From Terriglobia bacterium (GTDB lineage: Bacteria; Acidobacteriota; Terriglobia; UBA7540): a stretch of 16,621 nt of DNA. A program made the translations under genes and the position numbers. Shown one piece after another: positions 4,592 through 16,621 of the stretch (the first letter of the stretch is position 1; each line of letters opens with the position of its first letter). The notes below the pieces were generated by a model. It searched no databases and was not told the origin of the DNA. It saw only the letters and a list, made by a program, of their open reading frames with translations. The stretch lies in the NCBI GenBank assembly GCA_022866195.1, contig JALHUF010000130.1, forward strand, positions 1-16,621. The letters are read 5' to 3'.

Positions 4592-5620
4592 ATGGAACCT
4601 GCCTCGATCATGCGACGAATCGCCGTTGACGCCATGGGAACGGACGCGGCGCCAGGGCCGGAAGTGGAAGGCGCCATCCTGGCCGTGCGTGAGCGGCTGG
4701 CCGAAGTTGTGCTAGTTGGCCCGCAGGATGTTCTGGGGCGCGAATTGGGGCGCCGGGAGGCGCGGGGGCTGGACATCGAGGTAGTGCATGCCAGCGAGGC
4801 CGTCACCATGTCAGAGGCAGCCGCCAAGGCCTTTCGCCGGAAGCGTGACTCCTCCCTCCGGGTAGCGGCCCGGCTGGTACGGGAAGGCAAGGCGGACGGG
4901 TTCATCAGCGCAGGTAACACGGGCGCCGTCATGGCCACTGCGAAGATAACGCTGGGGGCGTTGGAGGGCGTCGAACGGCCGGCTTTGGCAGCGGTCTTCC
5001 CGACCTCGAAAGGTACGGCCTCGGTTCTGCTCGATGTGGGGGCCAACGCCGATTGCAGTCCGGCGAACCTGGAGCAATTTGCCGTAATGGGCGAGATTTA
5101 TTACCGGGCGATTTTCGGAGTGAAGCGGCCGCGCGTGGGCCTGCTGTCCATCGGCCAGGAAGCGCACAAAGGAAATGACTTGGCTCGGCAGACGCATCTG
5201 CGGCTCAAGAAACTGCCGTTGAACTTCATCGGGAATGTCGAGGGCCGAGACCTCTACAACGGCCGCGTGGACGTGACCGTCGCCGACGGCTTCACCGGCA
5301 ACGTCGTGTTGAAAGCTAGCGAGGGAGTTGCGGAGGTGCTTTCGGGCATACTACGAGATGCGCTCTCCAGTACCCTGAGCGCCAAGGTGGGCTACGTCCT
5401 GGCGCGGAAGGCCCTGCGGGACTTCAAGAAGCGGGCCGATTATTCCGAGTACGGCGGAGCGCCCCTGCTGGGGGTGCGCGGGGTTTGCATCATCTGTCAC
5501 GGCAGGTCGAACGCCAACGCCATCAAGAACGCCATTCGCGTGGCGGCGGAATTCGCCGCCGGGTGTGTGAACGAGAAGATTCAGCGTGAGCTGGCCGGAG
5601 CCTCCTGGGGAAGAACCTAG
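4592..5620 (+). CDS. plsX: Phosphate acyltransferase PlsX
   Basis: PlsX converts acyl-ACP and phosphate to acyl-phosphate, which PlsY then uses to acylate glycerol-3-phosphate; it acts at the inner face of the membrane. The 342-residue protein shows the family signatures: [19 protein letters not shown] near the N-terminus, [32 protein letters not shown], and [16 protein letters not shown] followed by [18 protein letters not shown]. PlsX commonly has MGGD where this has MGTD; this is a minor variant. The ATG at 4592 gives [16 protein letters not shown]. The second ATG at 4610 ([10 protein letters not shown]) fits the family equally well and neither has a strong ribosome site. It lies upstream of fabH, its usual partner, across a spacer filled by a 7-bp repeat. 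Confidence 0.96.
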
Positions 5621-5635
5621 GGGCAGCCTTCAGAG

Positions 5636-5726
5636 CGGAAGACGAAACGCGAAAATCGAAGTTCGAAAATCGCCCGTTCGAATGGCGGGTTACGAGTTTC
5701 GAATTTCGAGTTTCTAGTTTGGAACT
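5636..5726. repeat. Period-7 degenerate tandem repeat with inverted arms (plsX-fabH spacer)
   Basis: From 5636 the spacer reads in 7-mers: first CGAAnnn-like units (for example CGAAAAT at 5650 and 5664, CGAAGTT at 5657), then TCGAnTT-like units (TCGAATT at 5699, TCGAGTT at 5706) in the same 7-bp phase. The two halves are near reverse complements: 5651-5672 and 5693-5714 match at 19 of 22 positions around a 20-nt centre, which itself holds CCCG/CGGG. A long imperfect hairpin is possible. The array begins 15 bp after the plsX stop and ends just before the fabH ribosome site. Confidence 0.8.
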
Positions 5727-5742
5727 CCGGACGGGAGTGAAC

Positions 5743-6723
5743 ATGGCTTTGGCAGGGATTCTGGGCACTGGGGCGGCGGTGCCCGAAAAGGTGCTTACCA
5801 ATCAGGACTTAGAGAAACTGGTGGATACGTCCGACGAGTGGATCACGACGCGGACGGGTATCAAGGAGCGTCGGCTGGCCGCGCCGCACGAGACCACGTC
5901 CATGCTTTCCGTCCAGGCGGCTCGAAAAGCGCTGGACATGGCCGGAATCAAGCCAAAAGACTTGGACCTCATCATCTGCTCCACCATTTCGCCGGATATG
6001 CCCCTGCCGGCCACGGCCGCCTTTATCCAGCGCGACCTGGGAGCACCTCCTTGCTGCGCGTTTGATCTAGCGGCGGCATGCTCGGGGTTCCTGTTTGGGG
6101 TCACGGTGGCTGACCAGTTCATCACCACCGGGAAGGTCAAGTATGCCTTGGTGATCGGCGCGGAATTGCTCTCCCGCTATGTGGACTACCAAGACCGCGC
6201 CACCTGCGTGCTCTTCGGGGACGGAGTAGCGGCAGGCGTGCTGGGCCCGGCGTCGCCACCCTCGGGAATTTTGGGGGAAGAGATGCACACGGAAGGCGCC
6301 TACTCTGACCATCTCTATATTCCCGCGGGTGGAACTGTGAAGCCTACGAGCCGCGAGACCGTTGAGGCCCGGGAGCATTACATTAAAATGCGCGGCAACG
6401 AGCTGTTCAAGGTGGCAGTGCGCAGCATGGAAGAGGTGTCGCGGCGGGTTCTTAAGAAAGCCGGAGTCAGCGCCGAGGAATTGGACCTTTTTATTCCTCA
6501 CCAAGCTAACCAGCGCATCACCGATGCGGTCCAGGAACGCCTCGGCGTAAGTCCCGACAAGGTCTATTCCAACATCAGCCGCATCGGAAACACTTCCTCG
6601 GCTTCCATCCCGATCTGCCTGGACGAATGCGTGCGAAGTGGGCGCGTCAAAAAGGGCGACCTCATTCTGATGTCTGCCTTTGGCGCTGGGGTAACCTGGG
6701 GTGCAGTGCTGATGCGCTGGTGA
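5743..6723 (+). CDS. fabH: Beta-ketoacyl-ACP synthase III FabH
   Basis: FabH starts fatty acid synthesis by condensing a short acyl-CoA with malonyl-ACP. The protein has 326 residues. The triad is complete: Cys113 in AAACSGFLFG, His253 in FIPHQANQRI and Asn283 in RIGNTSS. SDEWITTRTGIKERR near the N-terminus and the Gly-rich end (SAFGAGVTWGAVLMRW) are typical. I chose the ATG at 5743 because GGGAG sits 5 nt upstream and the product begins MALAGILGTGAAVPE. An in-frame TTG at 5719 would start inside the repeat array and adds eight residues with no homologous counterpart. It is followed by fabD after a 128-bp repeat-bearing spacer. Starter chain preference (straight or branched) cannot be told from sequence alone. 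Confidence 0.96.
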   Translation: MALAGILGTGAAVPEKVLTNQDLEKLVDTSDEWITTRTGIKERRLAAPHETTSMLSVQAARKALDMAGIKPKDLDLIICSTISPDMPLPATAAFIQRDLGAPPCCAFDLAAACSGFLFGVTVADQFITTGKVKYALVIGAELLSRYVDYQDRATCVLFGDGVAAGVLGPASPPSGILGEEMHTEGAYSDHLYIPAGGTVKPTSRETVEAREHYIKMRGNELFKVAVRSMEEVSRRVLKKAGVSAEELDLFIPHQANQRITDAVQERLGVSPDKVYSNISRIGNTSSASIPICLDECVRSGRVKKGDLILMSAFGAGVTWGAVLMRW

Positions 6724-6724
6724 A

Positions 6725-6830
6725 GTAATTGTGTGATTGAGTGATTGAGCCATTGAATCATTGACCTACGGAGGGGGCAAGCTGGAAGTTAGGATCAGTT
6801 AATGGCCCGATGACTCAATCACTCAATGAC
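6725..6830. repeat. Period-8 degenerate tandem repeat with inverted arm (fabH-fabD spacer)
   Basis: Five consecutive 8-mers from 6725 to 6764 all carry ATTG at positions 4-7 (for example GTGATTGA at 6733 and again at 6741). A second arm at 6807-6830 reads in 8-mers on the opposite strand (TCAATCAC at 6815, TCAATGAC at 6823). Arms 6733-6755 and 6808-6830 match as inverted copies at 20 of 23 positions across a 52-nt loop. The array starts one base after the fabH stop codon. The same unit recurs after serA at 16367-16406. Confidence 0.8.
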
Positions 6831-6851
6831 CCAACTCTTACAGGGGTCTGC

Positions 6852-7790
6852 TTGCCCAAGATAGCTTTCCTGTTTCCCGGTCAAGGGTCGCAGTATCCCG
6901 GCATGGGCCGGGAACTGGCGGAGACGTTTCCCGCCGCGCGCCGCGTGTTCGAGGAGGCTGACCGGGCAGCGGGCTTTGCCTTGTCTAGACTGTGTTTTGA
7001 AGGTCCGGCAGAAGATCTTCAGCTCACAGCCAACACCCAGCCAGCCATCCTGGCGGTGTCGATCGCAGCGGCGGAAGTGTTGCGGGAAAGAGGCATTCGG
7101 GCGGACTACATGGCAGGGCACAGCCTGGGTGAGTACTCAGCACTGGTGGTGGCTGGCGCTCTGCGTCTGGGCGACGCGGTACGGCTGGTGCGCAAGCGTG
7201 GGCAGTACATGCAGGAAGCCGTACCCGTTGGGCGCGGCGCCATGGCGGCGCTGCTGGGGATGGAGGTGGCGGCAGTAGAGGCGGTTTGCCGGGAGGCGGG
7301 CCAAGGCGAGGTTGTCTCACCGGCCAACTTGAACTCCCCGGGTCAGGTCGTGATTGCGGGCCACGCGGCGGCGGTGGCGCGGGCGGTGGAGCTGGCCAAG
7401 GCACGCGGTGCGCGCCGAGCCGTCCTGTTGAACGTAAGTGCGCCCTTTCATTGTGCCCTCATGCAGTCCGCTCAGGAGCGCTTGGCGCAGGACCTGGAAG
7501 CCGCGCAGATCGCCGACCCGCAGATACCGCTGGTAAACAACGTGGATGCGCAGGTGGTGCGTTCGGCGCTGGCCGTGCGCGACGGGCTGAAGCGCCAGGT
7601 GACTATCCCGGTCCGGTGGGAGGAGTCGATCCGCGTGCTGCGTACGCAAGCCGTGGAACTCTTCGTGGAAGTGGGTCCGGGGAAGGTGCTTGCGGGACTG
7701 CTCAAGCAAATCGATCGCCAAGCCGAAGGTCTGCACGTGGAAGACCTGGCGTCCTTGCAGGGGGTCTTGGCGCGGCTGGCGGCTAGCTGA
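6852..7790 (+). CDS. fabD: Malonyl CoA-ACP transacylase FabD
   Basis: FabD loads malonate from malonyl-CoA onto ACP for chain extension. The 312-residue product begins MPKIAFLFPGQGSQ. It has the nucleophile motif GHSLGEYSA with Ser91, Arg116 (KRGQYMQ), His200 (SAPFHCALM) and SPGQVVIAG, matching E. coli FabD Ser92/Arg117/His201 within one position. I chose the TTG start at 6852 because AGGGG lies 5 nt upstream and the N-terminus then matches the family. An in-frame ATG at 6810 would translate the inverted repeat arm as 14 extra residues. fabG follows after 17 bp with its own strong ribosome site, so the two are surely cotranscribed. Confidence 0.95.
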   Translation: MPKIAFLFPGQGSQYPGMGRELAETFPAARRVFEEADRAAGFALSRLCFEGPAEDLQLTANTQPAILAVSIAAAEVLRERGIRADYMAGHSLGEYSALVVAGALRLGDAVRLVRKRGQYMQEAVPVGRGAMAALLGMEVAAVEAVCREAGQGEVVSPANLNSPGQVVIAGHAAAVARAVELAKARGARRAVLLNVSAPFHCALMQSAQERLAQDLEAAQIADPQIPLVNNVDAQVVRSALAVRDGLKRQVTIPVRWEESIRVLRTQAVELFVEVGPGKVLAGLLKQIDRQAEGLHVEDLASLQGVLARLAAS

Positions 7791-7807
7791 ATCCGGGAGG
7801 AACAACC

Positions 7808-8551
7808 ATGAACCTTGAAGGACGAGTGGCCTTGGTGACGGGCGCTGCCCAGGGTATTGGCAGGGCCATCGCCTTAGCGCTGGCGGAAGCGGGCGCCGAT
7901 ATTGCCGGAGGCGACGTCAAACTCGAGCAACTTCAGGCGGTGGCCAAAGAGATTGAAGCCCTGGGGAGAAAAGGCCTGGCGCTTCCCCTGGATGTCTCCA
8001 GCCCCGATTCGGTCAAAGCAGCGGTCGACAAGATTCTGGAAGTCTTCGGCAAGATCGATGTCCTGGTGAACAACGCGGGGATCACCAAAGACAACCTGCT
8101 GATGCGCATGAAACCCGAGGACTGGGATCTGGTCCTGCGGGTGAACCTGAACGGCGCCTTCCTTTGCACGCGGGCGGTGTTGCCGGGCATGGTTAAGCAG
8201 CGGTACGGGCGCATTATCAACATCGCCTCGGTCGTGGCCCAGGCCGGAAATGCCGGCCAAGCCAACTACGTCGCTTCGAAAGCGGGTATCATTGGCCTGA
8301 CCAAGGCGGTGGCCGCGGAAGTCGGCAGCCGGAACATCACGGTCAATGCGGTTGCCCCAGGATTCATCGCCACTGCCATGACCGAGAACCTGCCCGAGGC
8401 GGTACGCCAGAGGATGTTGAGCCTGATCCCGCTGGGACGCATGGGCACCGACCACAACATCGCTTGCGGGGTACGGTTTCTCGCTTCCGAGGAAGCGAGC
8501 TATATCACCGGGCACGTGCTGAATATCAACGGCGGGATGTACATGGCGTAA
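7808..8551 (+). CDS. fabG: 3-oxoacyl-ACP reductase FabG
   Basis: FabG reduces 3-oxoacyl-ACP to 3-hydroxyacyl-ACP. The 247-residue short-chain dehydrogenase has the cofactor loop TGAAQGIG (11-18), NNAG (88-91), the catalytic Ser141, Tyr154 and Lys158 (YVASK), and the FabG-typical segments AGITKDNLLMRMK and NGGMYM at the end. AGGAAC lies just before the ATG. At the end of the second beta strand it has Asp36 (AGGDVK), where NADPH-dependent FabGs usually have a small or basic residue; in this superfamily an acid there usually favours NADH. With this position inside a complete fab run the assignment is firm. The cofactor preference is inference. Confidence 0.95.
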   Translation: MNLEGRVALVTGAAQGIGRAIALALAEAGADIAGGDVKLEQLQAVAKEIEALGRKGLALPLDVSSPDSVKAAVDKILEVFGKIDVLVNNAGITKDNLLMRMKPEDWDLVLRVNLNGAFLCTRAVLPGMVKQRYGRIINIASVVAQAGNAGQANYVASKAGIIGLTKAVAAEVGSRNITVNAVAPGFIATAMTENLPEAVRQRMLSLIPLGRMGTDHNIACGVRFLASEEASYITGHVLNINGGMYMA

Positions 8552-8554
8552 GAG

Positions 8555-8634
8555 CAGTGACGAGTGAAGAGTGACAAGTGACAAGCCCAGGAGAGCGCTT
8601 GCGGTTCTTGCTCGCCCCTCGTCACTAGTCACTG
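8555..8634. repeat. Period-7 degenerate tandem repeat with inverted arm (fabG-acpP spacer)
   Basis: Four 7-mers of the form AGTGAnn run from 8556 to 8583 (AGTGACA occurs twice in a row, at 8570 and 8577). The opposite arm at 8619-8632 has TCGTCAC and TAGTCAC, also 7 bp apart. Arms 8555-8571 and 8618-8634 match as inverted copies at 15 of 17 positions. It begins 3 bp after the fabG stop and ends just before the predicted acpP promoter. Confidence 0.75.
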
Positions 8635-8646
8635 TTCTTGTGGTGC

Positions 8647-8675
8647 TTGAATCTAGCCCAAAGCACAGTTAGAAT
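8647..8675 (+). promoter_or_regulatory. Predicted sigma70-type promoter for acpP
   Basis: TTGAAT (8647-8652) and TAGAAT (8670-8675) are separated by 17 bp. The transcription start would be near 8682, giving a leader of about 25 nt that contains the strong ribosome site GAGGAGGAG. A separate promoter fits the high ACP demand of cells. The -35 match is 4 of 6 and the -10 match 5 of 6. Confidence 0.55.
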
Positions 8676-8706
8676 GGCCGCCCCACGGAATGAGGAGGAG
8701 AGACGG

Positions 8707-8955
8707 ATGGCTTCACTTGATGAGAAGGTCAAGCAGATTATTGTGGAGCAGCTCGGCGTGGACGAAGCCGAGGTGACCCCCACGGCGCACTTTATTGACG
8801 ACCTGGGGGCCGATTCGCTGGATATCGTCGAACTCGTGATGGCGTTCGAAGAGGCGTTTGAGATCGAGATCCCCGACGAGGACGCAGAGAAGATAACCAC
8901 GGTTAAAGACGCCATCGACTATATCCAGTCCCACGTGAAGACTCCCAAGAGCTAG
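8707..8955 (+). CDS. acpP: Acyl carrier protein
   Basis: ACP carries growing acyl chains on a 4'-phosphopantetheine arm. The 82-residue acidic protein has the attachment motif DLGADSLD with Ser37, and the usual helix pattern ([21 protein letters not shown] starting at about residue 40). The ATG at 8707 is preceded by GAGGAGGAG with a 6-nt gap, the best ribosome site in the window. A longer in-frame reading from 8638 would add a non-homologous leader and cross the predicted promoter, so it was not used. fabF follows after 35 bp. Confidence 0.97.
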
Positions 8956-8990
8956 CCGCCCGCGTCAGGCTGCCACAGGAGGAATGTATC

Positions 8991-10232
<1,242 letters not shown>

Positions 10233-10233
10233 A

Positions 10234-10321
10234 GGAGCTTTCAGCCGGCAGCCTTCAACTCTCACCCGCAGGTGGTGCGGCTGTAAGCCAAGGGATGACT
10301 GCTGATCGCTGATAGCTTCCG
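10234..10321. repeat. Period-7 degenerate tandem repeat with weak inverted arm (fabF-etfB spacer)
   Basis: The left part reads in 7-mers starting with CA (CAGCCGG at 10242, CAGCCTT at 10249, CAACTCT at 10256). The right part reads GCTGATC (10301), GCTGATA (10308), GCTTCCG (10315). Inverted copies 10234-10252 and 10301-10319 match at 14 of 19 positions, so this is the weakest of the paired arrays. It fills nearly the whole 92-bp spacer and ends 4 bp before the etfB start. Confidence 0.55.
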
Positions 10322-10324
10322 ACA

Positions 10325-11104
10325 ATGAAAATCGTCGTTTGTTTGAAGCAGGTCGCCGCACACGATGCGCCGTTGCGCTTGAACGCGGCGGGAACCTGGA
10401 TCCAGGAAGCAGACCTCAGCTTTGCCATCAACGAGCCGGACTTGTATGCTCTGGAAGAAGCCCTGCGGCTGAAGGAAAAACATGGCGGGGAAGTGGTGGT
10501 CTGTTGCCTGGGGCCGGCGCGCGCCCAGGCGGCCATCAAGGAGGCGCTGGCCAAAGGGGCCGAGCGGGCTCTGCACCTGGACAACCCAGCGCTCGAGGGC
10601 CTGGATCCCTGCGGCGTAGCGCGCGCTCTGGCCCAGGCAATCCGCAAGGAGAACCCCGACTTGGTCCTGACCGGTTTGCAGTCCGACGACTGGGGCTACG
10701 CGCAGACCGGCGTGCTGCTGGCGGAACTACTCGGCTTCCCGCACTCCACCATCATCATGGAAATCCAGGTTCACGGAAATGCGCTCAGGGTGAAACGGGA
10801 ACTGGAAGCGGGCTGGTTCCAGTGGATTGAGATGCCATTGCCTGCCCTCCTCACTATCCAATCAGGGATCAACAAACCGCGTTACGCCACGTTGAAAGGG
10901 ATTATGGCGGCCAAGAACAAACCTGTTCAGAAGTTGACACCGGCGGACCTGGGACTGACCCCGGAGGACCTGGCACCAAGGCAGAAAGTCTCCAAGGTGT
11001 ACGTCCCCGCCAAGAAAGGCCAGACCGAGTTCCTCCAGGGCAGCCCCAAGGAGATTGCCGCCCGGTTGGTGGACAAACTCAAGAACGAATCGCGGGTGCT
11101 CTAG
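10325..11104 (+). CDS. etfB: Electron transfer flavoprotein beta subunit
   Basis: EtfB pairs with EtfA to pass electrons from acyl-CoA and other flavin dehydrogenases to the quinone pool. The 259-residue protein begins MKIVVCLKQV, has NEPDLYALEEALRLKE, the nucleotide-binding stretch TGLQSDDWGYAQTG, and the subunit signature VKRELEAGW followed by PALLTIQSGINKPRYATLKGIM. Length is normal. No Shine-Dalgarno is seen before the ATG. It ends 17 bp before the broken ABM-like gene, with etfA beyond it; an etfB-small gene-etfA order implies one operon. Whether it is a bifurcating type cannot be decided from this sequence alone. Confidence 0.93.
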   Translation: MKIVVCLKQVAAHDAPLRLNAAGTWIQEADLSFAINEPDLYALEEALRLKEKHGGEVVVCCLGPARAQAAIKEALAKGAERALHLDNPALEGLDPCGVARALAQAIRKENPDLVLTGLQSDDWGYAQTGVLLAELLGFPHSTIIMEIQVHGNALRVKRELEAGWFQWIEMPLPALLTIQSGINKPRYATLKGIMAAKNKPVQKLTPADLGLTPEDLAPRQKVSKVYVPAKKGQTEFLQGSPKEIAARLVDKLKNESRVL

Positions 11105-11121
11105 CTGCGAAAGGAGTGATT

Positions 11122-11550
11122 ATGTTCATCCATATCTGGAGAATGCGGGCCCGCAAGAAGCGCGCGGACGAGTACGAGTAGTTTGGCCGGCAGGTCACGT
11201 TGCCGGCGTTGAAGAAAATCAACGGTTGCCTGGATGCCCACTTCATTAAGGTGTTCGAGGCGCGCAAACCCGAGTACCTCTGGCTGGTCTTCTGGCGGGA
11301 TCAGGCCGCTCTGGAAGCCGCGCGGAGCAATCCCGTCTGGCGCGACCAGATCAAGAAATTCGAAGCGGGAAAGTTCTACAAGACGATTCCGCTGGAGTTG
11401 GTTTGCGAGTCCCTGGCGTCGTCCGCCGCACCCAGCGCCGAGAAAGCCAGGAAGCCCGAGAAGGTCGAGAAGATTGACAAACCCGAGAGAGCGGAGAAGC
11501 CCGAGCCCAGCAGCAAAGGCTTTGTCGGCCCGACGCCGGAGGGCGAATAA
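11122..11550 (+). pseudogene. ABM-like small protein with in-frame amber codon and charged tail
   Basis: An ATG at 11122 with a strong AGGAG 5 nt upstream opens a frame reading MFIHIWRMRARKKRADEYE. It meets TAG at 11179-11181, then continues in the same frame as FGRQVTLPALKKINGCLDAH and onward to TAA at 11548. The whole looks like one ABM/ferredoxin-like dimeric alpha-beta domain (about 90 residues, WLVFWRDQAALEAARSNPVW) followed by a Lys/Glu/Pro-rich tail (repeated KPEK-like units). The amber codon is the only defect. The downstream part could also be read from the TTG at 11200 as 116 residues, but that loses the first beta strand and has a poor ribosome site. Options are a recent nonsense mutation, a sequencing or assembly error (CAG, AAG or GAG to TAG), or suppression. 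Function between etfB and etfA is unknown. Confidence 0.7.
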
Positions 11551-11635
11551 GAAGTACGAACTGTAGAGTGTGAAGGCTGAAGTACGAACACCGAACGTGA
11601 CGGGCTGTTTCATACTTTAACCTTCACGCTTCACC
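11551..11635. repeat. Period-7 degenerate tandem repeat with inverted arm (upstream of etfA)
   Basis: Seven 7-mers run from 11551 to 11599, six of them beginning GAA (GAAGTAC at 11551 and again at 11579, exactly four units apart). The opposite arm reads CTTTAAC (11615), CTTCACG (11622), CTTCACC (11629). Inverted copies 11567-11588 and 11609-11630 match at 18 of 22 positions with a 20-nt loop. It starts directly after the TAA of the ABM-like gene. Five T residues at 11639-11643 follow the hairpin at a short distance, so weak terminator action is possible. Confidence 0.75.
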
Positions 11636-11649
11636 CTGTTTTTCAAATC

Positions 11650-12642
11650 ATGTCCAACGAGATCCTGGTTTTCGCCGAGCACCAGGGCATGAAGCTGACC
11701 CGGCCCACATGGGAGGCGCTCGCTGCCGGGCAGCGCCTGGGGGGGGAACTCGCAGCACCGGTCGCGGCGATCCTCTTGGGTCATGGCATTTCCGCCTTAG
11801 CGGCGGAACTCGCCGCAGTGGAGCTTCAGGAAGTCTTGCAGGTTGACTCGCCTTTGCTCGCCGAATACACGGCGGATGGTTACACCCACACGCTTCGCGA
11901 GGTGATCCGCGACCGCCAGCCGCGCTTCGTGGTTTTCAGCCACACCTATCAGGTGAGGGACTTTGCACCAACACTCGCCGCCGCTCTGGACCGCGCTTTG
12001 GTGAGCGATTGTCTGAGCTACCGGGAAGAGGGCGGAAGGCTGGTTTTCGTTCGCCAGGTCTTCCAGGGCAAGTATTGCGCCGATGTGGAGTTCGTTGGCG
12101 ACCCACCCTACCTCGTGTCGTTTCAGGCCTCGGCGTTCCGCGAAGATTCGGTCCGGCGAGGGCCCGCCCCCGCCAAGGTCACTTCGGTTCCCACGACGCT
12201 GTCTCCCGGCGCCATTCGCACCAAACCCGGCGAGCGCTTTCGCGAGACCAAGCAGGCCGTGGACCTGTCCCAGGCCGAAATCATTGTCGCCGTAGGGCGG
12301 GGCATCAAGGCATCGGAAAACCTCGAACTCGTCCAGAAGCTGGCGGAAGCCCTGGGGGCGGAGGTCGGCGCCTCGCGGCCCATTTGCGACAACGGCTGGT
12401 TGCCCATGGACCGGCAGATTGGCAGTTCCGGACAGACGGTCGCGCCCAAACTCTACATTGGACTGGGCGTTTCCGGCGCCGTCCAGCATCAGGTGGGCAT
12501 GAAGGGATCTCGCACCGTGGTGGCCGTGAACAAGGACAAGGAGGCGCCGATCTTCGAACTCGCCACTTACGGGATCGTCGGCGACCTTTTCGAAATCGTC
12601 CCGCCCCTGATCGAAGAGATCAAGAAAATCAAAGCCGGCTGA
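11650..12642 (+). CDS. etfA: Electron transfer flavoprotein alpha subunit
   Basis: EtfA holds the FAD of the ETF dimer. The 330-residue protein begins MSNEILVFAEHQGMKL and carries the C-terminal FAD-binding signature: SSGQTVAPKLYIGLGVSGA, QHQVGMKGSRTVVAVNKD, APIFELATYGIVGDLFEIVP. Length is normal. The ATG has no clear ribosome site; the preceding bases are T-rich. It is separated from the ABM-like gene by 99 bp occupied by a repeat hairpin. The next gene converges on it from the opposite strand, and a weak hairpin (GACTC/GAGTC, 12659-12677) lies in the 63-bp spacer between them. Confidence 0.94.
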   Translation: MSNEILVFAEHQGMKLTRPTWEALAAGQRLGGELAAPVAAILLGHGISALAAELAAVELQEVLQVDSPLLAEYTADGYTHTLREVIRDRQPRFVVFSHTYQVRDFAPTLAAALDRALVSDCLSYREEGGRLVFVRQVFQGKYCADVEFVGDPPYLVSFQASAFREDSVRRGPAPAKVTSVPTTLSPGAIRTKPGERFRETKQAVDLSQAEIIVAVGRGIKASENLELVQKLAEALGAEVGASRPICDNGWLPMDRQIGSSGQTVAPKLYIGLGVSGAVQHQVGMKGSRTVVAVNKDKEAPIFELATYGIVGDLFEIVPPLIEEIKKIKAG

Positions 12643-12691
12643 AGCTGCTGGGTGAGACGACTCTGCGTGGGGGAGTCTCTTGCCCCTCTTA

Positions 12692-12747
12692 CGTCTGCTT
12701 GCCGCCTACTGCTTACTGCCCTCCGCCTTCTGCCGGCTGCCTTCTGC
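12692..12747. repeat. Period-7 degenerate tandem repeat, eight units, overlapping a coding end
   Basis: Eight uninterrupted 7-mers from 12692 all end in CTGC or CCGC on the plus strand (for example CTACTGC at 12706, TTACTGC at 12713, CTTCTGC at 12727 and 12741). No clear inverted partner was found. Bases 12706-12747 form the last 13 codons and the stop codon of the minus-strand hypothetical gene, so this array is in part translated. Confidence 0.8.
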
Positions 12748-13239
12748 CCCTTCTTTGGGGACCCACTCGAACTCCTTCCAAACCGTTTCCAGGATCTGGC
12801 ACCGCGCGCAATCCCACCTCCGCAGGGCCTCCGCGCGCCCGGTGATGCGGTCGGGGGTCAGGGCAGTGAATTCGATCTTCGTCAGAAGCCGACATCGGTT
12901 GCTGACTCGCCCGCTGGCCTCGGTGGTATCGCAGGGCAAATAGCTGCGCACCGTCCCAACCCACTTCGATCCCGCGCGCTGGGACTCACTGCGCACGTAG
13001 GCCCCGGCCTGAACCGCCGCGGGGGGAAGGTTGACCCACTCGGTGTGAAGACGATCATTCTCCACCCACACCCGGTATTCCCTGCGCGTGGTGATTGACC
13101 TCCAGACACGCGCTGAGGTCGGAACGGGTTGGGCCGGCGGCTTCCGGTCAGGCGGCTTGGCCTGCTGGGCTACGAGCTGCAGGCCCGCGATTTGCATGAG
13201 CATCATTCCACACGCCAGCACGAGTCTCCGAATTCTCAC
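12706..13239 (-). CDS. Secreted hypothetical protein with repeat-derived C-terminal tail
   Basis: I do not recognise a family. The start is a GTG at 13239 with GGGGAGG 5 nt upstream. Residues 1-26 form a likely signal peptide (positive MRIRR, then hydrophobic LVLACGMMLMQIAGLQLVA), so export is expected. A Pro-rich segment (28-40) and a mixed domain with four cysteines (103, 116, 144, 147; the last two as CARC) follow. The last 13 residues (AEGSRQK then AEGSKQ) are the translation of the 7-bp repeat array at 12692-12747, and the TAG stop itself is repeat sequence; the original end was probably near EWVPKE. It converges on etfA and is divergent from the aminotransferase. A candidate promoter lies upstream at 13299-13327. 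Confidence 0.65.
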   Translation of the reverse strand: MRIRRLVLACGMMLMQIAGLQLVAQQAKPPDRKPPAQPVPTSARVWRSITTRREYRVWVENDRLHTEWVNLPPAAVQAGAYVRSESQRAGSKWVGTVRSYLPCDTTEASGRVSNRCRLLTKIEFTALTPDRITGRAEALRRWDCARCQILETVWKEFEWVPKEGAEGSRQKAEGSKQ

Positions 13240-13298
13240 AATGTCCTCCCCAGGTTTTCCGGCAATTCGCCGGTACCACGGTCGTCTGTGGTCTCTCG

Positions 13299-13327
13299 CT
13301 TGTAGCGCCTCGGCCCCAAGATGTCAA
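13299..13327 (-). promoter_or_regulatory. Predicted sigma70-type promoter for the secreted hypothetical protein
   Basis: On the minus strand TTGACA (13327-13322) is followed after 17 bp by TACAAG (13304-13299). The predicted start near 13292 gives a leader of about 53 nt. Two short stem-loops fall in it: ACCAC/GTGGT (13275-13292) and CCGGC/GCCGG (13259-13273), just before the ribosome site. The -35 is perfect and the -10 matches 4 of 6. Confidence 0.5.
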
Positions 13328-13450
13328 TAAAGGCGCCGCCCCGTGGTTGAGATAGGGCGGATTCCGCAGCTTCTGCAAAAGGAAGCGTAGACGCCGCCAT
13401 CCCGCGTTTCGATTCTGCGCTAAGCAAGAGAGTTGGCCATCGCGCGTTGT

Positions 13451-13479
13451 TTGACAATCCCTCTGCCTTCCCCTAGACT
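13451..13479 (+). promoter_or_regulatory. Predicted sigma70-type promoter for the aminotransferase-serA unit
   Basis: TTGACA (13451-13456) and TAGACT (13474-13479) are separated by 17 bp. The start near 13486 would leave a leader of about 97 nt before the ATG at 13583. With the minus-strand promoter it makes the 343-bp gap at 13240-13582 a divergent regulatory region; nothing else coding is seen there. Confidence 0.55.
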
Positions 13480-13515
13480 GGCTAGCTTCGGCTCAGACAG
13501 CCCAGACAACTAGTA

Positions 13516-13531
13516 GGCCCCAATTGGGTCC
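13516..13531. promoter_or_regulatory. Near-perfect 16-bp palindrome in the leader of the aminotransferase-serA unit
   Basis: The core CCCAATTGGG (13519-13528) is a perfect palindrome, and the outer GG/CC pairs extend it with a single mismatched pair. It lies about 30 bp downstream of the predicted transcription start, a place where a repressor could block transcription. It may be coincidence; no regulator gene is near. Confidence 0.3.
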
Positions 13532-13582
13532 GTCAAGGAAGGTTCCTCCGAGGCAAACCCATTCGATACAGGAAGCGAACTC

Positions 13583-14743
13583 ATGCCTGGAATCATTAAA
13601 GAGAGACTTTTTACTCCTGGTCCCACCCCGCTGTTGATGGAGGCCCAGGCGCGCACGCTCACCGCCGCCAACGTCCATCATCGCACGGAAGCTTTCCGCA
13701 GAATCATGGCGGAGACGCTGGAGCTGCTGAAGTACTACTTCAACACGAAGAATGACGTCCTGGTGTTTGCCAGTTCCGGCACGGGAGCCATGGAAGGCGC
13801 CGTCTCCAATCTCATATCGCCCGGGGAGCGTATCCTGGTGGGAACGGCGGGCAAGTTCGGCGAGCGTTGGCTGGGTCTGGCCGAGGCCTATGGGATTGAG
13901 GCGGTGAAAGTTGAGTCGCCCTACGGTGGGCCGGTTGACATCGAAGCGATGAAGCAGAAACTGGCCAGCGAGGGACCCTTCCGCGCCGTGTACATTCAGG
14001 CTACGGAAACTTCCACGGCGGTGATGAACGATGTGCAGTCGCTCGGTGAAGCGGTCAAGAATTACCCGGCGACGTGCCTGGTGGTTGATGCCATCACCGG
14101 ACTCGGCACCACCGACCTGCGACCCGACGAGTGGGGTTTGGATATCGTCATTGGCGGCTCGCAGAAGGCGGTGATGATCCCGCCCGGTCTGGCCTTCGCC
14201 AGCATCAGTGAGAAGGCGTGGGGCTTGATTGCCCAGGCGAAATTGCCTCGCTACTACTTCGACTTCGCCAAAGAACGGAAGAATCAGGCGAAGGGCGAGA
14301 CAGCTTACACGCCCGCGACGACGCTCATTATCAGCCTGCACGCCGCGCTCGAGTACATCAAGCAGCTCGGGCGCGAGAACCTCATTGCCAACGCCGCCCT
14401 GCTGGCGTCGCTCACCCGCGAGGCCGCGCAGGCGCTCGGCCTGAGACTGTTCGCGGCCCGCTCGCCGGCTAACGCCGCCACCGCTGTCTGCGCTCCGGAA
14501 GGAATGGATTCCGGCGCGATCATCAAGGAGTTGCGGAATCGCTTCGGCGCCATCGTTGCGAACGGCCAGGGGAGCATGAAGGGCAAAATCTTCCGCTTGG
14601 CGCACCTGGGCTATTACGATGTGGTGGATCTCTTCGCTGTCCTCGCGGCGTTGGAGATTGTCCTTCTGAAACTCGGATACAAGGTTGAACTCGGTAGCGG
14701 CGTCCGCGCCGCGCAGGAAGCTTACATGCATCAGGCAGTCTGA
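13583..14743 (+). CDS. Class V PLP aminotransferase (alanine-glyoxylate/serine-pyruvate type), possible phosphoserine aminotransferase
   Basis: This fold-type I enzyme transfers amino groups using pyridoxal phosphate. The 386-residue protein begins with the family pattern LFTPGPTPL and has HHRTEAF (32-38), the phosphate-binding SSGTGAME (64-71), Asp169 in VVDAITGLG and the PLP lysine Lys195 in GGSQKAVMIPPGLAF. These features belong to the AGXT/serine-pyruvate group rather than to SerC. The ATG at 13583 follows AGGAAGCG. serA follows after 45 bp, and no serC is present, so it may make phosphoserine from phosphohydroxypyruvate. A similar pairing with SerA is known in Thermotoga (TM1400-TM1401). 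Alternatives are serine-glyoxylate or alanine-glyoxylate exchange. Class is certain; substrate is inferred. Confidence 0.88.
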   Translation: MPGIIKERLFTPGPTPLLMEAQARTLTAANVHHRTEAFRRIMAETLELLKYYFNTKNDVLVFASSGTGAMEGAVSNLISPGERILVGTAGKFGERWLGLAEAYGIEAVKVESPYGGPVDIEAMKQKLASEGPFRAVYIQATETSTAVMNDVQSLGEAVKNYPATCLVVDAITGLGTTDLRPDEWGLDIVIGGSQKAVMIPPGLAFASISEKAWGLIAQAKLPRYYFDFAKERKNQAKGETAYTPATTLIISLHAALEYIKQLGRENLIANAALLASLTREAAQALGLRLFAARSPANAATAVCAPEGMDSGAIIKELRNRFGAIVANGQGSMKGKIFRLAHLGYYDVVDLFAVLAALEIVLLKLGYKVELGSGVRAAQEAYMHQAV

Positions 14744-14788
14744 ACCTGTAGCAGCACGGCATGCCGCGCCCTTACACAGTCTGCGACT

Positions 14789-16378
14789 ATGGCCATGAAA
14801 ATCCTCGTTGCTGACAATATCTCCGAACGCGCTCTCGAGCTGCTCCAAGCCGAGAGATCTTTTGCGGTCGTGAATCTGCCCGGGAAGGCCGGCGCTTCGC
14901 TGGCGGACGAAATCCGCGACGCCGACGCTCTTGTGGTGCGCAGCGCCACCAAGGTAACGGCGCAGTTGCTCGAACACGCCGAGCGCCTGCGCGCCATCGG
15001 GCTGGCCGGCGTGGGCGTGGACAACGTGGACCTCGATGCCGCTACGAAGAAGGGCATCGTGGTGATGAACACGCCGGGCGGCAACGCGGTTGCCGTCGCC
15101 GAACATGCGGTGGCGCTGATGCTGGCCCTGGTCCGCCGCATCCCCCAAGCCGACAGCGCCCTCAAGCAGGGCCGCTGGGAGAAAAAGAAATTGATGGGCA
15201 CGGAGCTGCGCGCGAAGACCATCGGCCTGATCGGTCTAGGCAAGATCGGGATGGAAGTGGCGCGGCTGGCTCAGGCCTTCCAAATGGAGGTCATCGCCCA
15301 TGACCCTTATGTTTCTTCGCTGATGGCGCGCGAGCAGAACGTGCGGCTGGTGGCGCTGGAGGAGTTACTGAAGGCGAGCGACTTCATCAGCGTGCACGCC
15401 TCGGCGACGCCGGAGACGCACCATCTGCTCAACACGCAGACGCTGGCTCTGGCGAAGCCGGGCGTCCGCATCGTGAACTGCGCGCGCGGAGAATTGATCC
15501 ATGAGGAGGATCTGCTTCAGGCGCTCGAAAGCGGCCAGGTGGCTGGCGCGGCTCTGGACGTCTTCGAGAATGAGCCGCCCAAGGACTTCCGTCTGGCGGC
15601 GCACCCGAACGTCATCGCTACGCCGCACATCGCCGGCTCGACCGAGGAGGCGCAGGAAATTGTGGGCGTCCGCATCGCCGAACAGGTACGTGACTACCTG
15701 CTCCAGGGCGTGGCCCGCAACGCGGTGAACATGCCGACGATTTCGCCGGAAGAGTACAAGAAGCTCGAGCCTTACATTCAGTTGGGAGAGAAACTCGGCG
15801 CCTTCGTGGCGCAGATCGCCCCAGGGCGACTGGAAGAGATTCACATCAGCTACGACGGCGGCCTGGCGGAACTCAACACCCATCTGGTGAAGAACGCCGT
15901 GCTGAAAGGCATCCTCAACTGCGTCCTTTCCGAGCAGGCGAACCTGGTGAACGCGGGCACGCTCGCGCAGGCGCGCGGTGTCGAGGTGACGGAGTTGCGC
16001 AGCGCGCACCGGGCGGCGTTTTCCAACTCCCTTGGCATCGCGCTGCGCACGGAAACGGATTCCGCCTCGGTGCTCGGCATGCTGGGCCTGCGCGGCGAGC
16101 TGCGCATTCTGGGCATCAACGATATCGATGTGGAGGCCCCGCTGCGCGGTGTCATCCTTTTCATCCGCAACCAGGACGTGCCGGGCGTCATCGGGCGCGT
16201 GGGGACGCTCCTGGGCGATCGCAACATCAACATCGCCAACTTCGCCCTGGGCCGCAGCCAGAAGGCCGCCGAGGCCATCGGCCTCGTCAACGTGGACAAC
16301 CCCATCCCCGAGGCCGTGCTTACGGAAATCCGCGCTATCCCGGCCGTCCGCGTGGCACGAGTGGTGTCAATTGAGTGA
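14789..16378 (+). CDS. serA: D-3-phosphoglycerate dehydrogenase, long ACT-domain form
   Basis: SerA oxidises 3-phosphoglycerate to 3-phosphohydroxypyruvate, the first step of serine synthesis. The 529-residue protein is the long type: a split substrate domain, a Rossmann NAD domain with GLGKIG (149-154) and Asp172 (HDPYV, as in NAD-dependent enzymes), catalytic Arg233 (CARGELI), Glu262 (NEPP) and His280 (TPHIAGSTEEA), then an intervening ASB-like domain (about 320-450) and a C-terminal ACT domain (about 453-529; GVILFIRNQDVPGVIGRVGT) where serine may regulate. A start at 14795 (third residue) is equally plausible; no ribosome site is visible for either. The last codons (S-I-E-stop) lie inside the period-8 array at 16367-16406. 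Confidence 0.96.
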   Translation: MAMKILVADNISERALELLQAERSFAVVNLPGKAGASLADEIRDADALVVRSATKVTAQLLEHAERLRAIGLAGVGVDNVDLDAATKKGIVVMNTPGGNAVAVAEHAVALMLALVRRIPQADSALKQGRWEKKKLMGTELRAKTIGLIGLGKIGMEVARLAQAFQMEVIAHDPYVSSLMAREQNVRLVALEELLKASDFISVHASATPETHHLLNTQTLALAKPGVRIVNCARGELIHEEDLLQALESGQVAGAALDVFENEPPKDFRLAAHPNVIATPHIAGSTEEAQEIVGVRIAEQVRDYLLQGVARNAVNMPTISPEEYKKLEPYIQLGEKLGAFVAQIAPGRLEEIHISYDGGLAELNTHLVKNAVLKGILNCVLSEQANLVNAGTLAQARGVEVTELRSAHRAAFSNSLGIALRTETDSASVLGMLGLRGELRILGINDIDVEAPLRGVILFIRNQDVPGVIGRVGTLLGDRNINIANFALGRSQKAAEAIGLVNVDNPIPEAVLTEIRAIPAVRVARVVSIE

Positions 16379-16406
16379 TTGCGTGAGTGAGTGATTGAGT
16401 GAACTG
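16367..16406. repeat. Period-8 degenerate tandem repeat (end of serA)
   Basis: Five 8-mers run from 16367 to 16406, with GTGA at the start of four (for example GTGATTGC at 16375, GTGATTGA at 16391). The unit is the same as in the fabH-fabD spacer 9.6 kb away. The stop codon of serA (16376-16378) lies in the second unit, and the next gene begins 4 bp after the last. No inverted arm is present before that gene; one could exist beyond the window. Confidence 0.75.
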
Positions 16407-16410
16407 ACCC

Positions 16411-16621
16411 ATGAGCCAGCCGGAGGAGTTGAGGCAACGAACCAAGCAATTCGCCTTGCGAGTCATCAGACTGTTTCGATCCCTGCCCAAGTCCGACGAG
16501 GTACGCATCCTGGGGAAGCAACTCTTGCGCTCGGGAACCTCAGTCGCCGCTAACTACAGAGCCCTTTGCCGCGCGCGTTCCAAAGCCGAGTTTATCGCCA
16601 AGTTGGGAACGGTCATCGAAG
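16411..16621 (+). CDS. Four-helix bundle protein, 23S rRNA intervening-sequence (S23/Avd-like) family, partial
   Basis: Proteins of this family are small helical bundles, first found in insertions of 23S rRNA genes. They are related to Avd, the accessory protein of diversity-generating retroelements; the role of stand-alone members is unknown. From the ATG at 16411 the frame stays open to the right edge (70 codons of an expected 115-125). The recognisable pattern is RTKQFALRVIRLFRSLPKS, then LGKQLLRSGTSVAANYRA and CRARSKAEFIAKLG. The start is supported by the family pattern, with no clear ribosome site. It lies directly after a period-8 repeat array. No reverse transcriptase or variable repeat is visible in the window. 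Confidence 0.85.
   Translation, partial: MSQPEELRQRTKQFALRVIRLFRSLPKSDEVRILGKQLLRSGTSVAANYRALCRARSKAEFIAKLGTVIE

Follow-up and report, generated by a model that had tools for sequence, protein, structure and literature searches.

Seven- and eight-base-pair repeat arrays in a Terriglobia genome are probably the arms of hairpin elements with and without an S23 gene

To characterize the repeat arrays of a Terriglobia bacterium, we analysed a stretch of 16,621 nt (the window), which is contig C696 of the draft genome G000 (3.58 Mb, 727 contigs, 85% complete) and in which seven spacers hold degenerate tandem repeats of 7 or 8 bp. These arrays are very probably the arms of elements built around genes of the S23/IVP family (PF05635, the 23S rRNA-intervening-sequence protein, a four-helix bundle), and we consider it likely that they belong to S23/IVP hairpin elements occurring both as S23-bearing copies and as copies lacking an open reading frame (ORF). 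An element would sit directly behind a gene's stop codon, often within an operon, and would consist of a 5' arm with mostly four to six AG-anchored heptads (or octamers), then the S23 ORF (a loop of about 250-500 nt) or a short non-coding loop, and finally an inverted arm of the same unit. On this reading, the elements of the window are a single S23-bearing copy, truncated at the right end, together with five copies that lack an ORF and an arm standing alone:

5641..5672, + strand: 5' arm, heptads CGAAnnn, behind plsX
5686..5724, + strand: inverted 3' arm of the CGAAnnn-unit site
6724..6764, + strand: 5' arm, octamers (GATTGAGT type), behind fabH
6809..6834, + strand: inverted 3' arm of the octamer site behind fabH
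8556..8585, + strand: 5' arm, heptads AGTGACA, behind fabG
8617..8639, + strand: inverted 3' arm of the AGTGACA site
10238..10262, + strand: 5' arm, heptads TCAGCCn, behind fabF
10297..10320, + strand: inverted 3' arm (GCTGATn) of the fabF site
11553..11600, + strand: 5' arm, degenerate heptads GAAnnnn
11608..11639, + strand: inverted 3' arm of the GAAnnnn site
12697..12750, - strand: solitary arm, heptads GGCAGAA, which overlaps the minus-strand ORF 12706-13239 at its end and has no visible partner
16370..16402, + strand: 5' arm, octamers ATTGAGTG, overlapping the serA stop
16411..16621, + strand: S23/IVP (PF05635) gene, truncated by the contig end and preceded by the last window array

All seven sites lie where a preliminary description of this DNA had placed them, and each one exceeds dinucleotide shuffles in its best local self-match at lag 7 or 8. 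None of 2000 shuffles reached the observed value at 5621-5742, 6724-6854, 8552-8707, 12643-12775, and 16350-16410, with p=0.003 at 10233-10324 and p=0.0065 at 11551-11649. The period is 7 at five sites, which thereby qualify as tandem 7-bp arrays of the short tandemly repeated repetitive (STRR) type, and 8 at 6724 and 16350. Over the whole spacer, autocorrelation reaches z 3.5-6.2 at five sites, a strong signal, and is weak at 12643 (lag 7, z 2.1, p 0.058) and 16350 (lag 8, z 2.2, p 0.038), and it is non-significant in nine other testable spacers of the window (all p>0.16), a tenth being too short. The same description had seen inverted arms at five sites and array starts close to stop codons, and both observations hold: the RNA folds better than shuffles at five of six sites (z -2.3, -4.4, -2.0, -2.0, and -4.2), with no gain over shuffles at 12643-12770 (z +0.66), and each array begins at most about 20 nt past the stop of the preceding gene or overlaps it. 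The octamers at 6725 resemble those at 16370 beside the S23 gene of the window. At the solitary site, the heptad array also codes for the C-terminal residues of the minus-strand hypothetical protein (12706-12750), whose sequence ends in EGSRQKAEGSKQ.

S23 genes in general sit between such inverted arms. We collected 161 S23 loci: 13 from G000, 28 from relatives, 80 from named genomes (the best 80 of 569 confirmed, representing 21 phyla), and 40 further ones from the relatives G002, G003, and G004, where together with those in the relatives' set they cover 44 of 55 S23 matches. Arrays with a best lag of 7 or 8 flank the gene on both sides in 115 of the 161 loci, on one side in 39, and on neither in 7 (in one of the 161, the window's own copy, the 3' side lies outside the contig). 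Control window pairs of equal spacing elsewhere in the named loci gave both sides in 4 of 479 and one side in 54 of 479; a few of these pairs may include S23 flanks where loci are short, an overlap that could only increase the control figure. Among lags 4-13, lag 7 was best in 99/120 5' flanks and 93/120 3' flanks against 122 of 1021 control windows, and in the 40 further loci it was best in 37 of the 5' and 36 of the 3' flanks. The two arms of a locus also match each other better than arms of different loci do, with mean scores of 20.7 versus 10.3 (40 loci), 22.6 versus 9.5 (80 loci), and 19.5 versus 9.7 (40 further loci), and the same-locus match was at or above the 99th percentile of cross pairs in 20/40 loci and above it in 34/80 and 12/40. 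Because the arms are inverted and share a unit, the S23 ORF lies in a hairpin loop, as in the known 23S rRNA intervening sequences (IVS), and the IVS anatomy, with terminal arms inverted around a loop that contains an S23 ORF, holds for S23 loci generally. No Rfam rRNA match was found in the window or in the 17 S23 loci tested. Within G000, the 13 S23 genes (two with an internal stop) have a similar array upstream and in most cases an inverted arm downstream; the S23 paralogs of a genome, numbering 13-19, are diverse. Two loci show unusual flanks: L117 (Acidobacterium sp. palsa_139) has period 11 on both sides of S23 with a repeated GAGC-type anchor, and at 562-949 of L236 (G026) successive AGTGAC heptad arms alternate in orientation, like tandem hairpins.

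The tie to S23 extends across many phyla. In the 80-locus set, both arms were found in 16 of 21 named phyla, including Planctomycetota (9/12), Bacillota (7/7), Bacteroidota (7/12), Acidobacteriota (6/10), Pseudomonadota (4/14), Thermodesulfobacteriota (3/3), Chloroflexota (2/2), and Cyanobacteriota (2/2), and were missing in Lentisphaerota (0/2) and in four single-locus phyla, the archaeal one included. Complete cyanobacterial plasmids carry seven S23 loci (two near-identical) with heptads visible by eye on both sides, among them L267 and L268 with short 3' arms and L266 with displaced arms. The Calothrix plasmid copies L202 and L203 were rejected as evidence of movement, the shared sequence extending far past the element. 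A tree of 79 S23 proteins from named genomes, considered for transfer between phyla, required 37 label changes (minimum 20, shuffled mean 54.6) and is not taken as proof, since it has few columns and many open forks. At 1192-1560 of L266, on plasmid pANA02 of Anabaena sp. 90, the S23 gene is flanked by cas6 and cas4 within a type I-D locus; 18 such genes have been counted in cas loci (PMC3936711), and they could be element insertions at gene junctions.

A common repeat unit emerges from these arms. The 78 heptad 5' arms yield the logo A (79%) G (93%) K K R Y Y with 3.68 bits, the phase-permuted maximum being 2.72 (85 of 86 arms used; the observed logo was optimised from 40 starts, the 12 nulls from 4 starts each), and the logo of the 7 octamer arms is not above its null. 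G is abundant (36%) and C scarce (16%) in the 5' arm, figures that include one 5' arm containing N, and the 3' arm shows the opposite. Of the 86 detected 5' arms, 33 have four units and 21 have five; degenerate three-unit arms would fall below the detection threshold. The impression that every site has a unit of its own needs qualifying: the units do differ, but this AG-anchored logo underlies them. A stop-codon rationale for the period of 7 or 8 was rejected, with TGA and TAG mildly enriched and TAA depleted in 5' arms and several units free of stops.

The unit covaries with the S23 protein. In a comparison of the 140 S23 loci that have a heptad unit, from which 294 context-similar pairs were excluded, unit similarity rose from 0.45 below 30% protein identity through 0.50-0.51 at 40-60% to 0.68 at 60-70% (101 pairs) and 0.71 above 70% (17 pairs); among pairs with 50% identity or more, the observed mean was reached by 0 of 2000 permutations. 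Like pairs even cross phyla, namely L159 of Pyrinomonadaceae with L039 (AGTGACA and AGTGACG) and L157 of Nostoc with L284 (GGGAGT). This goes a long way toward explaining why units differ between loci: different units tend to go with different S23 subfamilies. Window units have counterparts at S23-bearing loci: the 10234 unit at L002 of the same genome (0.71) and in relatives, the 12692 unit at L005 of the same genome (0.76), the 5636 unit at L277 and L303 (0.80), the 8555 unit at L288 (0.75), and the 11551 unit weakly (0.59).

Arrays outside S23 loci are abundant where S23 genes are. Arrays were counted in stretches sampled from 31 genomes after masking runs of N and the listed S23 loci. The stretches are non-random, several contigs being known from S23 or Y1 matches, and any S23 gene absent from the list stayed unmasked. 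Arrays of lag 7 and lag 8 numbered 80 and 12 in 625 kb from the 14 genomes having at least five S23 genes, 4 and 3 in 640 kb from the 14 having no more than two, and 4 and 2 in 98 kb from the 3 with three or four, control lags yielding about one array per genome group. Across these 31 genomes, array density correlates with S23 genes per Mb (Spearman coefficient 0.67, p 4e-5, kinship not corrected for). The lack of a lag-7/8 excess over shuffled spacers genome-wide had been posed as an outcome that would refute the arrays; in this sample the refutation failed, the excess being strong in most S23-rich relatives and near zero in most S23-poor ones. Of the 109 arrays found in the window and eleven S23-rich genomes, 51 had an inverted partner no more than 1.2 kb away, against 4 of 109 for a base-permuted control arm. 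Loop sizes are bimodal, with 28 arrays at 0-149 nt, 21 at 250-499 nt, and 2 above 1.1 kb (both arms of a pair counted); the long-loop class contains the ORF in S23 loci, a few long loops being unchecked for S23. For short-loop arms, the logo taken from S23-bearing arms predicts the inward strand in 20/25 (p 0.004), and the 80 arrays outside listed S23 loci score on average 1.55 against this logo versus 0.93 with phases permuted (higher in 45/80, p 0.008). We somewhat favour the interpretation that copies without an ORF arose from S23-bearing ones or rely on them.

Occupancy of the same gene junction differs between relatives. The fabH-fabD spacer was read by eye in 13 of 20 fetched loci, one of which has no spacer; among the twelve readable, octamer arms occur in four (G000, G003, G004, and G008) and heptads in G002, no array is visible in G001, G006, G009, G011, G012, and G019, and G005 is ambiguous. 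Behind serA, examined in 12 of 20 fetched loci, G000, G003, and G008 have an S23 gene and none was detected in eight others, the stretch from G006 being too short. At a junction that is likely nuoF-nuoG, judging from translation, S23 occurs in G015 with both arms and in G017 with a 5' array alone, G003 has an ORF-less array with a similar 5' unit, and G002 has no visible array. A junction that is probably sucC-sucD is occupied by S23 genes in both G000 (L011) and G027 (L238), and their units differ. Two side observations concern such junctions: a further one carries S23 in opposite orientations in G000 (L001) and G008 (L018), as if flipped between inverted arms, and a second piece resembling the SerA C-terminus lies about 0.6 kb behind serA in G004 (C414, 5453-5575).

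How such elements would work can be sketched from these observations. In the transcript, the arms would fold into a stem cleavable by RNase III, by analogy with the Coxiella rRNA IVS (PMC4990558), the S23 protein would recognise its own heptad, and S23-bearing and ORF-less copies would form one family that spreads as units by means of a host enzyme. Whether the elements are mobile rather than purely regulatory we regard as evenly balanced. Direct recognition of the heptad by S23 is a tentative proposal to which we give somewhat less than even weight. In one form of this proposal, each subunit of the S23 toroid would dock a single AG-anchored heptad on an arm of mostly four to six units, much like TRAP, which binds NAG repeats; such a ring would account for a period that stays constant while the unit varies. 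The two PDB relatives have five chains each, and the Xanthomonas S23p is described as a toroidal homopentamer (PMC4990558, citing Lin 2006). The widest version is more doubtful, although conceivable: an S23 ring would read its own heptad through a protein-to-heptad code particular to each subfamily, and STRR, the G-heptads of Xanthomonas and Nostoc, the TAACTGA repeats of Beggiatoa, and the rRNA IVS would be one superfamily of hairpin elements lacking any recognisable enzyme.

Several observations weigh against the S23-element reading. No movement enzyme was identified, no near-identical recent copy turned up among 44 loci of three relatives (the best within-genome pair has about 80% identity over 372 nt), and 83% of Xanthomonas repeats keep their context in two species (PMC4692102), which points to stability and not to frequent movement. 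In the named set, both arms were found in just 4/14 loci of Pseudomonadota and 0/6 loci of five other phyla, and 7 of the 161 S23 loci lack any array. G017 and G018, with 7 and 5 S23 genes, lack arrays in small samples, and G023, G024, and G027, with 1, 1, and 3, do have some. At the threshold used, 58 of 109 arrays in S23-rich genomes have no inverted partner, and ORF-less units are hardly closer to the S23 units of their own genome (0.679) than to those of other genomes (0.647; 19/30, p 0.06). Similar S23 proteins can have unlike units (L022 versus L003 and L004), the covariation may reflect shared descent of the whole element and not recognition, and for the Coxiella IVS the authors hold the RNA to be more important than S23p (PMC4990558).

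Other explanations account for parts of these data. The arrays might be a family of regulatory RNAs, acting as binding sites or stems in post-transcriptional control or as G-quadruplexes, between which S23 merely often lies. Translational regulation was proposed by MacGregor for the TAACTGA repeats (PMC4679880), Rehm described in-vitro quadruplexes and transcription of most repeats (PMC4692102), stems fold at five of six window sites, and positions are kept between genera (fabH-fabD spacers) and between species (Xanthomonas). Set against this, matched arms enclose S23 genes in 115/161 loci from many phyla, the 13-19 diverse S23 paralogs of a genome fit an element better than a single regulator, and many of the heptads here are not G-tract repeats, so that we judge a purely regulatory family unlikely. 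Fixed-step slippage with inverted copying, arising de novo at each spacer, was the kind of local process that the preliminary description had preferred to the spread of an element. Coxiella strains do differ in repeat number by whole units (PMC4990558), and the order of unit variants agrees between arms in L012, L022, L083, L091, and L096 (most clearly in L012 and L096). Over all loci, the arms exceed the unit-order-shuffled mean in just 28/58 (Wilcoxon p 0.04), and since they share the unit and usually not the variant order, exact inverted copying is at most a minor contributor. Slippage also leaves unexplained why S23 occupies the loops, why array density follows S23, and why there is a common logo and a unit that follows the protein more than the locus, and as an origin of the arrays it is highly improbable. 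The preliminary interpretation is thus partly supported: whole-unit slippage and a protein tied to the period are possible, and arms flanking S23 genes in many phyla speak against local origin in place of element spread.

Miniature elements moved by a Y1 transposase of the RAYT type, associated with repetitive extragenic palindromes (REP), could draw on nine Y1 matches in G000, several of them weak. Among 20 Y1 genes from G000, G003, G009, and G016, inspected as a control family, about half have single REP-type palindromes and heptads appear in no best arm match; G009 has seven Y1 genes and no lag-7/8 array in 80 kb, and G001, G006, and G011 have S23 genes without a Y1 match, which makes Y1-driven movement a very remote prospect. 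Clear flanking REP-type palindromes accompany the Y1 genes of L042, L045, L052, L058, and L060 (G000 and relatives). A reverse-transcriptase element is suggested by the resemblance of PF05635 to Avd, a protein of diversity-generating retroelements (PMC10053308); with no RVT_1 match in G000 (85% complete), G003, G005, G010, or G026, each of which has 9-17 S23 genes, we find it scarcely credible. The position of the arrays behind stop codons would suit ordinary intrinsic terminators or insulators. A GC-rich stem followed by a T run was found at none of the arrays in 5400-13000, the four instances in the region all lie elsewhere and are fewer than in shuffles, and most arrays stand within the fab/etf gene run, which leaves this option with next to no weight.

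The gene order of the window is ffh, plsX, fabH, fabD, fabG, acpP, fabF, etfB, etfA, an aminotransferase-like gene, and serA, with names given mostly by reading translations and Pfam run for five proteins. The S23/IVP gene at 16411 scores 38.3 bits against PF05635, above the Pfam gathering cut-off of 33.8 despite its truncation. The gene at 11122-11550 may be interrupted, as the frame from the ATG at 11122 meets a TAG at 11179-11181 and an ORF in the same frame is weakly ABM-like at 11200-11550.

If correct, the S23-element reading would join three subjects: heptamer repeats, which have been described species group by species group, multi-copy S23 genes without a known function, and rRNA intervening sequences, whose function and origin are called unclear (PMC4990558). 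It predicts that an S23 protein recognises the repeat beside its own gene, and matched protein-repeat pairs are now supplied. If mobile, the elements would be a very small class without a recognisable enzyme, residing inside core operons.

The preliminary description rightly recognised arrays of true period, with inverted arms, at the 3' ends of genes, and these resemble the heptamer repeats of cyanobacteria. Cyanobacterial STRR are grouped with the GGGNATC-type heptads. Those of Xanthomonas and Nostoc share with the present arrays the period of 7, the G-rich strand, and the location near stop codons, and the Xanthomonas report gives 70 and 75 inverted pairs in two genomes with a preference for four units (PMC4692102); a single unit family was studied there, whereas many units linked to S23 proteins occur here, and neither 'S23' nor 'four helix' appears in its main text. 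The TAACTGA repeats of Beggiatoaceae are likewise intergenic heptamer arrays (PMC4679880), and their reverse complement TCAGTTA fits the AG logo and is found in an arm of the S23 locus L019. They differ in being reported as direct repeats upstream of starts with one inverted case, and 'S23' is absent from the main text of that paper. Repeat classes of Geobacter metallireducens contain four or five tandem heptanucleotides and differ in being predicted to be regulatory elements (PMC2700814, whose main text does not mention 'S23'). REP/RAYT systems also place short inverted intergenic repeats around a small gene; unlike the arrays here, these are single palindromes with a Y1 transposase gene, and no 7-bp period was seen. 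A link between intergenic heptamers and S23 genes was not found in searches of open-licence PMC papers (preprints not included), the closest being a remark on Coxiella. The 23S rRNA IVS of Coxiella has an S23p ORF within a stem-loop with a 28-bp stem and is excised by RNase III, and two or three tandem GACAGAT heptamers stand directly before the ORF, differ between strains by whole units, and are cut by RNase III at the first repeat (PMC4990558). GACAGAT fits the AG logo on rotation (AGATGAC). The Coxiella IVS thus shares with the present elements the inverted arms, the S23/PF05635 ORF in the loop, and the heptamers of whole-unit variability before the ORF (PMC4990558). It differs in lying in rRNA, whereas the elements described here occupy protein-gene spacers; new here is an S23-bearing intervening sequence outside rRNA, accompanied by abundant ORF-less copies.

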